Below, in pieces: positions 5,296 through 30,755 of a stretch of 32,852 nucleotides of DNA. Positions within the stretch are counted from its first letter, which is position 1. Each line of letters begins with the position of its first letter. The notes below the pieces were generated by a model that was not told the DNA's origin, did not search any database, and saw only the letters and a program-made list of their open reading frames with translations. The translations under genes were made by a program, and so were the position numbers. This DNA is from Limisphaerales bacterium (lineage in GTDB: Bacteria; Verrucomicrobiota; Verrucomicrobiia; Limisphaerales; UBA11358), in the NCBI GenBank assembly GCA_025360325.1, contig JANYCI010000270.1, positions 1-32,852 on the forward strand. The letters are read 5' to 3'.

Positions 5296-5486
5296 AACCA
5301 CGGATGGACACGGATGGACACGGATGAACACGGATAAAACAAAAGCCGGAATTCTTAACCGCGAAATACACGAAATACGCGAAAAGGGATTTGGGAAATT
5401 TGTTCGCGTATTTCGCGTGGTTCGCGGTTAAATAAAGTGAGTTTTCAATTTGATTCGTGTCCGTCCGTTTTAATCCGTTGTTAAAA
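5296..5486. repeat. Nested palindrome of short-period repeats, no ORF
   Basis: The outer left part (5297-5336) is about 3.5 copies of a 10-base unit CGGATGGACA; the outer right part (about 5452-5482) is its degenerate reverse complement. The inner arms at 5355-5382 and 5404-5431 pair over 28 bases with three mismatches (core ACCGCGAAATACACGAAAT). It fills the gap between the GHMP-like gene and the GH29 gene, ending four bases before the GH29 ATG. It resembles the palindromes at 13747-13900 and 28722-28803 in architecture. Confidence 0.8.
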
Positions 5487-5490
5487 AATT

Positions 5491-7125
5491 ATGAAACTGA
5501 ACCAAATCAAATTCACCGCGCTGCTGCTGGGCGTTTCGCTCGTGTCGGCGGTCGCGCAAACTAGTTCGTTGCGCCTGCCGCCGATTGCTGGCGGGCCGTT
5601 CAAGGCGGACTGGAGTTCGCTGATGAATTATCAGACGCCGGAGTGGTTTCGCGACGCGAAGTTCGGCATCTGGGCGCACTGGGGGCCGCAGTGCGAGCCG
5701 GAGCACGGCGACTGGTATGCGCGCAGTATGTATGAAACAGGCAGCGGCAATTACAAATCGCACATCAAAGAATACGGCCATCCGTCCACAAATGGCTTCA
5801 AGGACGTTATACATCAGTGGAAGGCGGCGAATTTTGATCCCGACAAGCTGCTGAAATTTTACAAAGCGAACGGCGCAAAAACTTTCATGGCGCTGGCGAA
5901 CCATCACGATAACTTTGACAACTGGAATTCCAAATATCAGGAGTGGAATTCCGTTGCGCTGGGGCCGCAGAAAGATTTGATCGGCGGCTGGGCGCGCGCG
6001 GCGAAGAAAAACGGGTTGCGTTTTGCCGTGAGCGTTCACGCCTCGCGCGCATGGACATGGTATGAGCCGGCGCAGGGCGCGGACAAGGACGTCGCGTTCG
6101 CGGGAATTCCTTACGACGGCAAATTGACGAAGGCCGATGGCAAAGGTCTGTGGTGGGACGGTCTCGATCCGCAGGAGCTTTACGCGCAAAACCACGCGCC
6201 CGGCACGAAGCTGAATTGGGACTGGGATCCAAGCAAAGGCAGCAGCGTTCCCGACGCTGCCTACATGGAAAAGTTTTTCAAGCGCACGCAGCAGCTCTGG
6301 GATGATTATCATCCCGACCAGATTTATTTTGATGACAGCGTGCTGCCCTTCCATGGCGTCTCGGACGAAATCGGTTTGAACCTCGCCGCGCATTTTTACA
6401 ATTCGAGCATTTCTCTGCACGGTCAAAACGAGGCGGTGATGAACAGCAAGATGCTGAACGAAACCCAGCGCGAGGCGATGACTTACGACATCGAGCGCGG
6501 CAAGGCGGACCACATTTTGCCGCAGCCGTGGCAGACGGATACTTGCATCGGTTCGTGGCATTACGACCAGAATATTTTTAAGAGTCATCACTATAAATCC
6601 GCCGCGTCCGTGGTGCGGATGCTGGCGGACATCGTGAGCAAGAACGGCAACTTGATGTTGAGCGTGCCGTTGCAGCGCGACGGCCAGCCGGACGCAGACG
6701 AAATCAAAATCGTTAGCGAAATCGGTGCGTGGCTGAAGGTGAACGGCGAGGCGATTTACGCGACGCGTCCGTGGAAAATTTACGGCGAAGGCCCTTCGAC
6801 GGTGACGGCGGAGAAAGGTCAGTTTGACGGCCAGCGCGACGTGTCCAACAAACCGTTCACGGCGGAAGATATTCGTTTCACACAGTCGAAGGATGGCAAA
6901 ATACTTTACGGCATCGCGTTGGAAATTCCGAAGGACGGAACAGTCACGGTGAAATCACTCGCGAGCAATTCCGCAAACTGGCCGGGCAAAATCAGTAGCG
7001 TGCGTTTGGTCGGTGGCGGTTGGTGGAGCGGCTTGAAATTCACCCGCGATGAAAGCGGCCTGCACGTTTCGCTGCCGGAAAAATTTAGCGGCAAGACCGC
7101 GCTCGCACTGAAAATTAAATCCTGA
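5491..7125 (+). CDS. Secreted glycoside hydrolase family 29 (alpha-L-fucosidase-like)
   Basis: A 544-residue protein with a signal peptide (about 1-22, ending SAVAQ). The GH29 catalytic domain starts with WFRDAKFGIWAHWGPQCEP, followed by FMALANHHDNFDNWNS and LRFAVSVHAS. The expected nucleophile region is DQIYFDDS, with Asp281 the best candidate for the catalytic nucleophile. A C-terminal beta-rich part (about 450-544) fits the usual accessory domain. GH29 enzymes release terminal alpha-L-fucose; some accept alpha-L-galactose, which would match the upstream epimerase, but specificity cannot be read here. The next gene starts three bases after this stop, so the two are almost certainly co-transcribed. 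A signal peptidase I cleavage is likely, so it acts in the periplasm or outside. Confidence 0.88.
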   Translation: MKLNQIKFTALLLGVSLVSAVAQTSSLRLPPIAGGPFKADWSSLMNYQTPEWFRDAKFGIWAHWGPQCEPEHGDWYARSMYETGSGNYKSHIKEYGHPSTNGFKDVIHQWKAANFDPDKLLKFYKANGAKTFMALANHHDNFDNWNSKYQEWNSVALGPQKDLIGGWARAAKKNGLRFAVSVHASRAWTWYEPAQGADKDVAFAGIPYDGKLTKADGKGLWWDGLDPQELYAQNHAPGTKLNWDWDPSKGSSVPDAAYMEKFFKRTQQLWDDYHPDQIYFDDSVLPFHGVSDEIGLNLAAHFYNSSISLHGQNEAVMNSKMLNETQREAMTYDIERGKADHILPQPWQTDTCIGSWHYDQNIFKSHHYKSAASVVRMLADIVSKNGNLMLSVPLQRDGQPDADEIKIVSEIGAWLKVNGEAIYATRPWKIYGEGPSTVTAEKGQFDGQRDVSNKPFTAEDIRFTQSKDGKILYGIALEIPKDGTVTVKSLASNSANWPGKISSVRLVGGGWWSGLKFTRDESGLHVSLPEKFSGKTALALKIKS

Positions 7126-13746: not shown

Positions 13747-13900
13747 TTTAGCCACAGATGGGCACAGATGAAACACAGATTTTTAATCCGCGAATCTTGC
13801 CGGCATAATTGATTCCGAATAATTAAGGGCAATTTTGATTTTATCGCGCCGCTGGCAGATGGTTTTATCTGTGTCCATCTGTGCCCATCTGTGGCTAAAA
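13747..13900. repeat. Palindrome with period-10 arms, no ORF
   Basis: The left arm at 13747-13780 contains three copies of a 10-base unit around CACAGATG; the right arm at 13867-13900 is a near-perfect reverse complement of it (34 bases). About 85 bases lie between, with no ORF. It sits between the starts of the EVE gene and the YggS gene, so both promoters are probably inside or beside it. It shares the short-period arm style with 5296-5486 and 28722-28803. Confidence 0.82.
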
Positions 13901-25453: not shown

Positions 25454-27289
25454 ATGCAGCACATAAGAAATATCGCGATTATCGCTCACGTTGACCACGG
25501 CAAAACCACACTCGTAGATTGCTTGCTCAAGCAATCGGGAACCTTCCGCGAAAACCAGCACGAAACCAAAGAGGAACGCCTGATGGATTCGATGGACCTT
25601 GAAAAAGAAAAGGGCATCACCATCCGCGCCAAAAATGCCGCGTTCAAATACAAAGATTTTCACATCAACATTGTTGATACTCCCGGACACGCGGATTTCG
25701 GCGGCGAAGTGGAACGCATCATGAACATGATTGATGGCGTGTTGCTCGTGGTGGATTCCGCTGAAGGTCCGCAGGCGCAAACGCGCTTCGTGTTGCGCAA
25801 AGCTCTCGAAGCCGGTGCGAAGCCGATTGTGGTCATCAACAAAATTGACCGCGAGAACGCGAACCCGAAAAAAGTTTTGGATCAGGTTTTTGAATTGTTC
25901 ATGTCGCTCAACGCGACGGATGAGCAGTTGGATTTCCCGTTTATTTATTGCTCGGCCAAGGAAGGTTACGCCAAGGTCGAACTCGAACACGTCAGCGGCA
26001 CGATGGAACCGTTGTTCGATGCGATCGTGAAACACATTCCGCCGCCGCGCGCGAAAGCCGGTGACGGTTTTCAATTGCTCGTGGCGAATTTGGATTATTC
26101 CGAATACCTTGGTCGTATCGCGTTCGGCAAAATTGTCGAAGGCAAACTCAAAGTGGGCGACCCCGCAATTTGCCGTCATGGCAGTGGCAAAATTTCCAAG
26201 GGCAAGATTACCATGCTCTACCATTTCGAGGGCATGAAGCGGATCGAAATTCAAGAAGCCCACGCCGGCGACATCGTGGGTATCGCGGGTTTCGAGGAAG
26301 TTTTCATCGGCGAAACGATTTGCGATTCTGAATTGCGCGCCACACTGCCGTATATTCCGATTGATCCGCCGACGATTCAAATGGAATTTGCCGTGAATGA
26401 CGGCCCGCTCGCGGGCAAAGAAGGCAAGCTTGTCACCGCGCGTCACATTTGGGATCGCCTCGTGAAAGAAATCCGCACGAACGTCGCCCTCCGCATCGCC
26501 CAGACCAGCGACCCGAAAATTTTCGCGGTCAGCGGACGCGGCGAAATGCAGATCGCCATTCTCGTCGAACAGATGCGCCGCGAAGGCCATGAAGTTCTCG
26601 TCTCGCGCCCCGAAGTGTTGTGGCAAAAAGGCGCGGACGGCAAGGCGCTGGAGCCGATTGAAAAATTGTATGTTGAAGTTCCGAGCGAAAATCTCGGCAA
26701 CATCATGGAAAATCTTTCGGGCCGCAAGGCGCAGATCACCAACATGAATCACGTCGGCACGCAAGTCTCCGTCGAGGCGCTCGTCCCGATGCGCGGCTTG
26801 ATTGGTTTTGAAACTGACCTCGTGAACTCCACCAAGGGCATGGGCGTGATGAGCCATCTCTTCCACGAATACGGCGAAGATCGCGGCGAAATTGCCGCGC
26901 GCAAAAACGGTTCGCTCGTCTCGATGGATGACGGTGAAGCCACGAGCTACGCGCTGAACATGGTGCAGGAACGCGGCCGTTTGATGATCGCGCCCGGCGA
27001 CCATGTTTACGTCGGCATGATCGTTGGTGAAAACGCCCGCGAAAATGACATCCCCGTGAATCCGGTGAAGGAAAAGCGCCTCACGAATATGCGTTCGCAA
27101 GGCGACGGCAAAGGCATCGCGCTTTCGCCGCCGATGAAACTCTCGCTCGAACGCGCGTTGGAATATATTGACGTGGATGAATACGTGGAAGCCACGCCGA
27201 AGAGCCTGCGCCTGCGCAAAAAAGTGTTGGATGAGAACGCCCGCAAGCGTTCCGAAAAATCCCGCGCGATTAAATACGTGCAGGAATAA
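25454..27289 (+). CDS. typA: Ribosome-associated translational GTPase TypA/BipA
   Basis: A 611-residue translation-factor GTPase. The G domain has [15 protein letters not shown], the switch-region [27 protein letters not shown] and VINKID; then come the beta-barrel domain 2, domain III and V elements ([32 protein letters not shown]) and the C-terminal TypA domain ([20 protein letters not shown], about 555-600). I chose the ATG at 25454, preceding [10 protein letters not shown]; the frame is open far upstream but has no relation to TypA there. The protein binds ribosomes and aids 50S assembly and stress growth. A strong terminator follows. Confidence 0.97.
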
Positions 27290-27304
27290 AAAGTCCCTTT
27301 CTAC

Positions 27305-27340
27305 AACCGCCGTCTGGAGCAATCCGGGCGGCGGTTTTTT
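27305..27340 (+). terminator. Rho-independent terminator after typA
   Basis: AACCGCCG-TCTGGA pairs with TCCGGG-CGGCGGTT through a GCAA tetraloop, giving a 14-pair stem with two G-U pairs, followed by a T6 run. It begins 15 bases after the typA stop. Confidence 0.9.
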
Positions 27341-27459
27341 ATATGGAATCAATGCACCGATGCTTTGACAGTCGGTGACGCGACGGAAATTCACTTTACG
27401 AACCACGTTTGTTTGCTAATCTCGACGGCCTTTGTTTCATTGAGGCAGTTAATTTTTTT

Positions 27460-28704
27460 ATGGCCAAACTTTTCATTGAAGATGTCAGCTTGCACGGCAA
27501 GCGCGCGCTGATCCGCGTGGATTTCAACGTGCCGCAGGATAAAATCACCGGCGCGATCACCAACACTAAGCGCATCGAAGCCGCGTTGCCGACCATTCGC
27601 TATGCGCTGGATCAAGGCGCGTCGGTGATTCTAATGAGCCACCTCGGTCGTCCCGATGGCAAGCGTATCGAGAAATTTTCCCTGAAGCCCGTGGCCGATG
27701 CGCTGGCGAAATTGCTCGGCAAGCCAGTGCAATTTCTCAATGACTGCGTCGGCGCGGAAGTCGAAGCCGCGTGCGCCAAGGCCAAACCCGGCGATGTGAT
27801 TTTGCTCGAAAATTTGCGCTTCCACATTGAGGAAGAGGGCAAGGTGAAGCTTGAAGATGGAACCAAGTTGAAAGCCGACGCCGAAAAGGTGAAAGCCTTC
27901 CGCGCCAGCCTCACAAAGCTCGGTGATGTTTATATCAATGACGCTTTCGGCACGGCGCATCGCGATCACAGCTCGATGACTGGCGTGTTGCTCCCGCAAC
28001 GTGCGTGTGGCTATTTGATGAAGAAGGAACTCGACGCGTTTGGCGCAGTGCTCGACCACCCGAAACGTCCGTTACTCGCGATTCTCGGCGGCTCGAAAGT
28101 TGCGGACAAGATTCAACTCATCAACAACCTGCTCGACAAGGCTGATGAAATTATCATTGGCGGCGGCATGGCTTATACTTTCCGCAAGGTGCAAGAAAAC
28201 ATGAGCATCGGCAATTCGCTCTTTGATGCCGAGGGCGCGAAGATTGTGCCTGAACTGCTGGCGAAGGCCAAAGCTCTTGGCAAAAAAATTCATCTGCCCG
28301 TGGATTGGGTGACGGGTGATAAGTTCGGCCCCGATGCCAAGGTCGGCAGCGCGACGTTGCAAAGCGGCATCCCGGATGGCGTGGAAGGCATGGATGCCGG
28401 TCCGGAATCGTCCAAGCAATTCGCGGCGGTCATCGCCCGCGCCAAGACGATTATTTGGAACGGCCCTCCCGGCGTGTTTGAATTTCCCGCATTTGAAAAA
28501 GCCACCAAAGCAATGGCCGATGCCATCGTAGCGGTTACGGCAGCCGGGGCGACAACAGTGGTTGGCGGCGGCGACACGGCGACGGCGGCAAAGAAATTCG
28601 GTGCGGACAAAAAAGTGTCGCACACCTCGACCGGCGGCGGCGCGTCGTTAGAATTTCTCGAAGGCAAAGTGTTGCCCGGCGTAGCGGCACTTTCGGAGAA
28701 ATAA
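27460..28704 (+). CDS. pgk: Phosphoglycerate kinase
   Basis: A 414-residue protein with the PGK signature [11 protein letters not shown] near the start, [10 protein letters not shown] (substrate site), [26 protein letters not shown], and the C-terminal nucleotide-binding [11 protein letters not shown] and [11 protein letters not shown] ending [16 protein letters not shown]. It converts 1,3-bisphosphoglycerate and ADP to 3-phosphoglycerate and ATP in glycolysis. I chose the ATG at 27460; the open frame to 27409 encodes a non-PGK leader. It is the first gene of the pgk-tpiA-secG run. An inverted-repeat unit with a GxxExxY gene follows. Confidence 0.98.
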
Positions 28705-28721
28705 ATTTAACGCAAAAGAAA

Positions 28722-29244
28722 TTAACGCAAAGGCGCAAAGGTTCAAAGACGCCAAGTTAAAACAGTTTTCTCTGCGCCTTTTGCCCTTGGTGTCTTTGCG
28801 TTAAAAATTAGCGTTAATAAAGACTATGACCGAGAACGAAATCAGCAAAGTGATTGTGGATGCAGCGATTGAGGTTCATCGGGAGCTGGGTGGGCCGGGA
28901 TTGTTGGAAAGTGTTTATGAAGAAGCCATGGTCGAGGAACTGACTCGGCGCGGACTTAAAGTGGAACGGCAGTTGCAAGTGCCGATTATTTACAAAGGCA
29001 AACAACTGGCGAGTCCGCTGCGACTGGATTTGAAAGTGAATGGATTGGTGCTGGTGGACAACAAAGCCGTGGCGGAATTGAATCCAATTTTTGAAGCGCA
29101 GATGTTGACGTATTTGCGTTTAACGAAGTTGAAGCTGGGATTGGTCATTAATTTTGGTGAGCGTTATGTGAAGAATGGAATTCACCGCGTTGTGAATGGT
29201 TTGCAACAACTTTGCGTCTTTGAACCTTTGCGCCTTTGCGTTAA
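28722..29244. mobile_element. Candidate GxxExxY unit bounded by perfect 31-bp inverted repeats
   Basis: The 31 bases at 28722-28752 are the exact reverse complement of 29214-29244 (core AACGCAAAGGCGCAAAGG). A third, degenerate arm at about 28771-28803 pairs with the left arm, forming a hairpin before the gene. The unit encloses the GxxExxY gene and sits between pgk and tpiA. No transposase is present and no target duplication was found, so mobility is inferred. Confidence 0.6.
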
Positions 29245-29254
29245 AATTTTTTGA
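28826..29254 (+). CDS. GxxExxY-type protein (PD-(D/E)XK-nuclease-like family)
   Basis: A 142-residue protein with the name-giving motif in GLLESVYEEAMVEEL (G-x2-E-x2-Y), preceded by VIVDAAIEVHRELGG. A nuclease-like core follows: LRLDLKVNGLVLVDNKAV, where Asp...Asp-x-Lys takes the place of the D...ExK triad, then LTYLRLTKLKLGLVINFG. The family is annotated as uncharacterised (I recall TIGR04256, Pfam PDDEXK_3). The last 14 residues (LCVFEPLRLCVKIF) are encoded by the right 31-bp inverted repeat and its edge. It ends three bases before tpiA, so it probably shares the pgk-tpiA transcript. Function is unknown; DNA cleavage is a family-level guess. Confidence 0.88.
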   Translation: MTENEISKVIVDAAIEVHRELGGPGLLESVYEEAMVEELTRRGLKVERQLQVPIIYKGKQLASPLRLDLKVNGLVLVDNKAVAELNPIFEAQMLTYLRLTKLKLGLVINFGERYVKNGIHRVVNGLQQLCVFEPLRLCVKIF

Positions 29255-29257
29255 AAC

Positions 29258-30022
29258 ATGAATAAAGAAAGAAAACTGATCATTGCCGGTAACTGGAAGA
29301 TGAACAAGACCGTCGCCGAGGCACTCACGCTGGTGGAAGACCTCAAGCGCGATCTTGCCAACGTGAAGGAAGTGGACATCGTTATCGCGCCGCCGTTCAC
29401 CGCGTTGAGCGAAGTGTCCAAGGCCACGCTCGACTCGACCATTCGCCTCGCCGCGCAAAACATGAGCGAGAATAATTTTGGCGCGTTCACTGGCGAAACC
29501 TGCGCGGGAATGTTGAAAGAATTTTCCGTGCGCTACGTCATTCTCGGCCACAGTGAACGTCGGCAGTTTCAAAAAGAATCTGACGCGCTCATTGCCAAGA
29601 AAGCGTTGGCGGCTCACGCGGCCACGTTGAAACCCATCGTCTGCATCGGCGAAACGCTCGCCGAACGCGAAGGCAATCTCACCGAAAAAGTTTTGGAAAC
29701 CCAGACGCGCGGCAGCCTCGCCGGTTTGACCAAGGAACAAATGGTTGAAACCGTTCTGGCCTACGAGCCCGTCTGGGCCATCGGCACCGGCAAGACCGCC
29801 AGCACGCAGCAAGCGCAAGACGCCCACGCGTTCATCCGCAAGACGCTCGCGGCGATGTTCGATGACGCCACGGCGAAAAAGGTTCGCATCCAATACGGTG
29901 GCAGCGTGAAGCCCGCGAACGCGAAAGAGTTAATGAGCCAGCCCGATGTGGACGGCGCGCTCGTCGGTGGCGCTTCGCTCGAAGCGAGAAGTTTTGCTGA
30001 CATCATCAAGAATTCCATTTAA
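29258..30022 (+). CDS. tpiA: Triosephosphate isomerase
   Basis: A 254-residue TIM barrel. The catalytic lysine is in IIAGNWKMNKT (Lys14), the histidine in VILGHSERRQF, and the glutamate in LAYEPVWAIGTGKTA; the phosphate-binding IQYGGSVKPAN and DGALVGGASL close the barrel. The enzyme interconverts dihydroxyacetone phosphate and glyceraldehyde 3-phosphate. It starts three bases after the GxxExxY stop and is followed by secG after 12 bases. No strong Shine-Dalgarno sequence is visible before its ATG. Confidence 0.98.
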   Translation: MNKERKLIIAGNWKMNKTVAEALTLVEDLKRDLANVKEVDIVIAPPFTALSEVSKATLDSTIRLAAQNMSENNFGAFTGETCAGMLKEFSVRYVILGHSERRQFQKESDALIAKKALAAHAATLKPIVCIGETLAEREGNLTEKVLETQTRGSLAGLTKEQMVETVLAYEPVWAIGTGKTASTQQAQDAHAFIRKTLAAMFDDATAKKVRIQYGGSVKPANAKELMSQPDVDGALVGGASLEARSFADIIKNSI

Positions 30023-30034
30023 GATAACCAACCT

Positions 30035-30424
30035 ATGAATTTCATTGCCGACTTATTGACCTTTGTGCTCGTCATCAACTGTCTGTTGCTGATTTTTCTC
30101 GTGCTGGTTCAGTTGCCCAAGAAGGATGCCGGTGCGGGCATGGCTTTCGGCGCGGGTGCGGCGGATGCCTTGTTTGGCGCAGGTTCTGGCAACGCGTTGA
30201 CGAAAATCACCAAGTATGCGGCGGGCGCGCTCATCGTGCTGTGCCTCATGATTAACTACGCCAGCGCCAAATCCGGCCACGATAACGGTGCCAACTTCCA
30301 GAAGAAGCTTCAGCAAAAGCAGATGGAATCCACCGCGCCGTCGGCTCCGGCTCCGTCCATGACTCCCGCGCCCACTGCAACGCCGACAACGACTCCGGTG
30401 GTAACCTCGACGAACGCGAAGTAA
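30035..30424 (+). CDS. secG: SecG preprotein translocase subunit
   Basis: A 129-residue membrane protein with two hydrophobic segments (about 3-25 and 60-77) around the SecG loop LPKKDAGAGMAFGAGAADAL. SecG assists SecYEG-dependent export through the inner membrane. A Pro/Thr/Ala-rich tail of about 40 residues (PSAPAPSMTPAPTATPTTTP) extends it beyond the common ~75-110 residues. The position after pgk and tpiA is common in bacteria. A strong terminator follows. Confidence 0.92.
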   Translation: MNFIADLLTFVLVINCLLLIFLVLVQLPKKDAGAGMAFGAGAADALFGAGSGNALTKITKYAAGALIVLCLMINYASAKSGHDNGANFQKKLQQKQMESTAPSAPAPSMTPAPTATPTTTPVVTSTNAK

Positions 30425-30440
30425 ATTTCTTTTTCCACGA

Positions 30441-30474
30441 ACGCGCCGCGAATTTATCGCGGCGCGTTTTTTTT
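30441..30474 (+). terminator. Rho-independent terminator after secG
   Basis: An 11-bp perfect stem (ACGCGCCGCGA with TCGCGGCGCGT) around an ATTTA loop, followed by a T8 run. It begins 17 bases past the secG stop. Confidence 0.92.
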
Positions 30475-30755
30475 GCCACGATTGCCGTCTGCATTGCGTT
30501 TGCGCCGGACATAAACGCAGGTCATCAAGATCAAGTCAGTAAAGGCGGGGCGCAGCGGCGGCGGCTTAAAAACATTTTTAAAAAATTAACCGGCGATCAA
30601 TAGTCAGAAGGCAAACGTGATGCCCGTGCGGGTTGGAGGGTGGAACATGGTCGCTCGAAAATCACTCGCCATTTTTCTAATTCGCGTTCCGAGCTGGGAG
30701 CGGCGTGTGATTCAACCGCCAGAAAATACGTTTTGCCTAGCGGTCAACGGCGAAC
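30475..30755. other. Intergenic region with no gene seen
   Basis: Between the secG terminator and the 3' end of the convergent ROK gene. Short frames exist but none shows motifs or a good start. No repeat pair was found. I see nothing definite here. Confidence 0.5.

Follow-up and report, generated by a model that had tools for sequence, protein, structure and literature searches.

A GxxExxY gene bounded by inverted word arrays between pgk and tpiA as a candidate minimal mobile element

In the 32,852-nucleotide stretch of DNA analyzed here (the window), a small GxxExxY gene lies between pgk and tpiA and is enclosed by inverted repeats. The question raised by this locus is whether the repeats and the gene form a single unit, and whether the encoded protein could move it. 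Annotated GxxExxY genes occur across a very broad span of genomes, and to our knowledge the protein has no known role. The features of the locus, together with two gene-less units elsewhere in the window, are listed in Table 1.

Table 1. Positions of the GxxExxY unit, its host genes, and two gene-less units in the window.
Feature	Position	Strand	Remarks
pgk, upstream host gene	27460..28704	+	Unit starts directly past the pgk stop codon
Left arm	28713..28758	+	Perfect core 28722-28752; words CGCAAAG / CGCAAAG / TTCAAAG / CGCCAAG; grammar as at other loci
Degenerate second inverted arm	28774..28804	-	Pairs with the left arm (77%); 5' of the gene
GxxExxY ORF, 142 aa	28826..29254	+	TIGR04256 / PF13366
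Right arm	29208..29253	-	Perfect core 29214-29244; repeats the left arm in inverted orientation; long RNA stem
tpiA, downstream host gene	29258..30022	+	20-31 bp from pgk in many congeners
Gene-less unit, word CACAGAT	13753..13893		Arms 13753-13780 (+) and 13867-13893 (-); about 86 nt between arms
Gene-less unit, word CACGGAT	5299..5460	.	Outer arm on the right decayed; end position approximate

The cores of the two arms are exact reverse complements (31/31), which confirms the perfect 31-bp inverted repeat first seen around this ORF by the sequence-only reading. The chance of such a pair within about 600 bp is ~1e-13 (our own estimate, by base-pair counting). The wider arms are 46 nucleotides in length and 91% complementary. 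The left arm is composed of four words at 8-bp spacing, located at positions 28726, 28734, 28742, and 28750. A degenerate third arm had also been described upstream of the gene; it is present, and its pairing with the left arm gives a hairpin 5' of the GxxExxY gene. The RNA of the window folds with a long stem between the two arms (z −7.2). No Rfam family matched above its gathering score within positions 27200-30600.

The window ORF matches TIGR04256 with 134.3 bits (cut-off 35) and PF13366 (PDDEXK_3) with 127.6 bits (cut-off 22). PDDEXK_3 and GxxExxY models are the only profiles that it matches. No known transposase is matched, whether of the DDE or HUH type or a serine or tyrosine recombinase, and a classical IS or MITE was rejected on this point. 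The conserved residues E, D, E/D-x-K, and QxxxY correspond to the RecB/Cas4-type PD-(D/E)XK active site. The structure model of the protein has a pLDDT of 91. Among solved structures, Cas4 SSO0001 is the closest (Z 9.7, rmsd 5.2 over 103 residues), and Hjc and lambda-type exonucleases rank lower; the best Foldseek E value is 2.4e-3, and the structural matches are at the level of the fold only. A PDB sequence search with the family profile returned no match, and neither did the PADLOC defence families. GxxExxY models as a Cas4/RecB-like PD-(D/E)XK nuclease and is probably a DNA-cutting enzyme. In the output of one published pipeline, a cas4 gene likewise appeared under the name of a GxxExxY domain (PMC8934634). 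The dN/dS of GxxExxY is 0.10, the same as that of tpiA, indicating strong purifying selection, and selection of this strength could reflect a host function.

The last codons of the ORF do lie inside the right arm, as had been observed. The further proposal that the C-terminus is built from the repeat did not hold. The conserved domain extends to about residue 126 (VVNGL), and residues 127-142 are produced by reading into the right arm. Residues 129-140 of this tail are disordered in the structure model, and the protein of a congener orthologue (L057) stops at VVNGL, before its right arm. Its disorder, and its absence in the orthologue, mark the tail as incidental read-through; a stop codon precedes the right arm in 101 of 140 elements.

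GxxExxY genes elsewhere also have flanking inverted repeats. The genome of the window contains seven GxxExxY genes, all with flanking repeat arms, and each element has its own sequence and word. Six of these seven arm pairs are inverted, and the remaining one (L003) is a direct repeat. Among loci selected on protein score, with arms not a criterion, inverted arms are present at 79 of 95 loci at the level of the order and at 61 of 76 loci sampled across more than 20 phyla, archaea included. Control genes from the same genomes have inverted arms at 3 of 88 loci (tpiA, 1/29; Uma2, 0/30; ParE, 2/29; Fisher 2e-31). The best of 60 dinucleotide shuffles is exceeded by 64 of the 76 cross-phylum loci. 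An additional inverted arm is found in 55 of 140 elements. GxxExxY units apparently make up a large class that was not previously described. In the open-access literature searched, no paper was found that ties GxxExxY to flanking arms, to these repeats, or to mobility; two papers give the family name and nothing further, and a literature search by repeat sequence also found no paper.

Related copies of one element (L239/L259, L241, and L249), located at three different, unrelated loci, share 76-79% identity along about 450-485 bp. In most pairs the homology ends no more than about 10 bp from the ends of the arms; in the pair L241/L259 it runs about 30 bp past them. The flanks are unrelated for more than 680 bp on either side. 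As in IS and MITE elements, the terminal inverted repeats bound the mobile unit. That copies at unrelated loci end near the arms supports the earlier suggestion that repeat and gene are one unit.

Two host junctions were compared among relatives. Between trpA and manC, the gap from stop to start is 4 nucleotides in three congeners (L317, L318, and L322), which is the ancestral state. The same junction contains a full unit with the word CACAGAT in genome G027 and a full unit of another subfamily, with the word CACGGAT, in genome G003; the two proteins are 35% identical. Gene-less hairpins are present there in G005, G017, and G021, and hairpins nested in hairpins in G013 and G028. The insertions begin at the trpA stop codon or just past it. 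A homing endonuclease element, which would occupy a single conserved target site, was considered and rejected, as one subfamily is found at several unrelated loci and different subfamilies are found at one site.

Between pgk and tpiA, empty or clean gaps were likewise found in related genomes. Both conditions named in the sequence-only reading as counting against it, a lack of empty sites here and a lack of inverted repeats at GxxExxY genes elsewhere, are thus contradicted. The full unit is present in G000, in G026 (same genus as the window), and in G058, which belongs to another family. Decayed remnants are present in six species, and at least 13 species have a clean gap of 20-31 bp. Both clades of the genus have kept the sequence of the clean gap, which points to an ancestral empty state; given this conservation, precise excision is not needed to explain all clean gaps. 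The dS between G000 and G026 is 1.09 for the element and 1.06 for tpiA. As these values are equal, the junction may also have received one old insertion that was lost in some species, or it may have received several insertions. Both junctions are AT-rich, with no unambiguous target-site duplication. Three other pgk-tpiA gaps (L046, L062, and L296) contain gene-less hairpins with other words (CATCCTCAT, ACTCCAAC). The unit in G058 (L287, G058:C345) is 90% identical to that of the window and contains an internal TAG, while the adjacent pgk and tpiA are 46% and 85% identical, respectively. This suggests horizontal transfer or a chimeric contig. From the sequence comparisons, it is well supported that the arm-gene-arm unit is mobile as a whole, with gene-less derivatives.

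An arm is composed of three, sometimes four, copies of the 7-mer C[AG]C-N-[AG]A-[G/T/A] at a spacing of 8-11 bp, following a T/A-rich leader. A minority of elements have related words (for example, CAGGAT, GCAGGAA, and AACAAAG). The two arms have the same word in 79% of elements, compared with 7.5% for arms taken from different elements. Word bases match between the arms at 93% and spacer bases at 58%. Two word positions are set by the search pattern, so the fair comparison with the spacers is that of the free positions, which match at 72-98%. This greater agreement of words than of spacers favors recognition of the words over mere base pairing.

Arm similarity follows protein similarity (Mantel r = 0.555, null sd 0.021), with r = 0.32 for protein pairs below 60% identity and 0.23 below 50%. 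One subfamily split, between words ending in G and in T, dominates the mutual information of protein columns with word letters, which for that reason was not used as evidence of direct contacts. A scan of neighboring ORF ends found many stops near the left arm; this is only suggestive because the arms themselves contain stop codons.

Gene-less copies are far more common than genes. In 1.72 Mb of samples, 81 gene-less three-word arrays were counted, with none in shuffles. Three word patterns searched in 59 genomes gave 806 arrays, compared with about 25 for the reversed control, and 20 of these were gene-borne at the loci examined. Gene-less single arms are also common. For the first word, the median number of gene-less arrays per Mb is 2.9 where the matching gene is present and 0.3 where it is absent (p 0.0004). 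The corresponding medians are 3.0 and 0.4 for the second word (p 0.025) and 0.7 and 0.2 for the third (p 0.039). The enrichment holds for all three words with a combined p<0.0002, and within genus only with p of 0.02, 0.13, and 0.04; these values are optimistic, as the genomes are related and the cross-genome comparisons are not phylogenetically independent. An exact-word test, confined to samples of five genomes, gave an own-genome match of about 0.40 versus 0.39 for other genomes and so did not show the enrichment. Genome G021 has many CACGGAT arrays, yet that word is absent from the arms of all its genes whose arms were examined. The gene-less copies could be decay relics, in which case word matching is also expected. 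In the window, a CGCGAAA hairpin (5360-5384 / 5402-5426) is nested inside the CACGGAT unit, which is directly upstream of an ORF starting at 5491.

The reading preferred here, with a probability of roughly 60%, is that the locus holds a minimal mobile element in which arms of three or four 7-bp words surround one nuclease gene, and that GxxExxY would recognize the words and move the unit. The unit, 450-550 bases in length, behaves like a very small jumping element: it inserts into the gaps that separate the genes of operons, and many copies with no gene are left behind. GxxExxY would bind the words of its own class and cut the DNA at the arms, perhaps once these are extruded as a hairpin or cruciform. 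Cutting would lead to arm-gene-arm units being copied or moved, and gene-less hairpins likewise, in trans, akin to the proposed movement of REPINs by the RAYT protein. The host would tolerate units that land right past a stop codon because a TAA, TAG, or TGA is often provided by the arm leader itself and the start codon of the next gene is not far behind. The sequence-only reading had proposed a small non-autonomous or nuclease-driven mobile element. A small mobile element of nuclease type is supported, with the nuclease as its putative driver; "non-autonomous" suits the gene-less hairpins and not the gene-bearing copy.

A different account would make the gene a passenger. The word-arm palindromes would be moved or copied by a host process, such as template switching in replication, or by another enzyme, and GxxExxY would be kept for a benefit to the host, for example in DNA repair or defence. 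The purifying selection on GxxExxY, equal to that on tpiA, fits this account, as do the small number of genes beside the many gene-less arrays and the lack of a known nuclease activity for GxxExxY. Genes for a non-nuclease four-helix bundle are found in a parallel arrangement, so arms need not require a nuclease. However, arm word and protein subfamily covary strongly, gene-less words are enriched in genomes with the matching gene, GxxExxY lies mostly between arms in more than 20 phyla, and no PADLOC defence family is matched. The passenger account is considered unlikely, at about one chance in four. The arms might instead act at the level of RNA, as a stem with the gene enclosed in its loop, with operon insertions processed out of the transcript and spread being secondary. 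The model here is the 23S rRNA intervening sequence (IVS) of Coxiella, which has inverted ends, a small S23p ORF with tandem heptamers upstream of it, and is excised by RNase III (PMC4990558). The long stem in the folded window RNA agrees with this. The lower match of spacers than of words between the arms is unexpected if pairing is selected, the repetition of a word three or four times per arm is superfluous for pairing, and gene-less single arms are common, all of which make an RNA-level element improbable. Least credible is that a global regulator binds the arms and that GxxExxY is merely nearby. In Geobacter metallireducens, 21 paired sites (class 2) carry the repeat TCTCCGTS[Y] three times in tandem, with the partners of a pair on opposite strands and a variable distance apart. 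They share the design of the arms and were proposed to be such regulator sites (PMC2700814). Against this, the moving units end sharply at the arms and enter gaps that are empty in relatives, different words occur at the same junction, and at the two orthologous junctions examined the arms are not conserved across species.

The mobile-element reading can be compared with several known systems. Like REPIN/RAYT, it has a resident low-copy gene flanked by the same repeat, short palindromic gene-less copies that outnumber the gene, and a repeat class matched to the protein. It differs in that GxxExxY is a PD-(D/E)XK protein, whereas RAYT is an HUH Y1 tyrosine nuclease/transposase related to IS200/IS605, and in that GxxExxY arms are arrays of three or four short words, with several classes per genome. 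We know of no PD-(D/E)XK fold that acts alone as a mobility enzyme. GxxExxY would be such an enzyme, with naturally varied target words, if it does move the arms. The difference from the Geobacter sites lies in their interpretation as regulator sites, and a link to GxxExxY was not found in the passages of PMC2700814 examined. The link between GxxExxY and the arms offers a testable role for the family and would account for many orphan intergenic repeats, which one paper has read as regulator sites.

GxxExxY units also connect to 23S rRNA intervening sequences, which have been a puzzle for 30 years. An IVS of the S23p type, inserted in 23S rRNA, was rejected for the unit at pgk-tpiA, which sits in the gap of these two genes and has a TIGR04256 ORF rather than a TIGR02436 one. 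The two designs share a small ORF enclosed by inverted arms; they differ in protein fold and word length, and GxxExxY units sit between protein genes. A wider proposal, held tentatively and at somewhat less than even odds, is that these units form a new class of minimal mobile element in bacteria and archaea. A single 120-aa Cas4/RecB-like nuclease would read element-specific word arrays and move its own unit and gene-less hairpins, the four-helix-bundle/23S-IVS elements would be a sister design with 7-bp words, and ends or relics of such elements would account for many of the orphan short tandem repeats of environmental genomes. Inverted arms are present at 22 of 29 TIGR02436 four-helix-bundle loci, with a period of 7 or 14 in 18 of the 22. 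The arms at these loci (L097-L126) are composed of tandem 7-bp words, and up to 16 copies of the gene are found per genome in the order.
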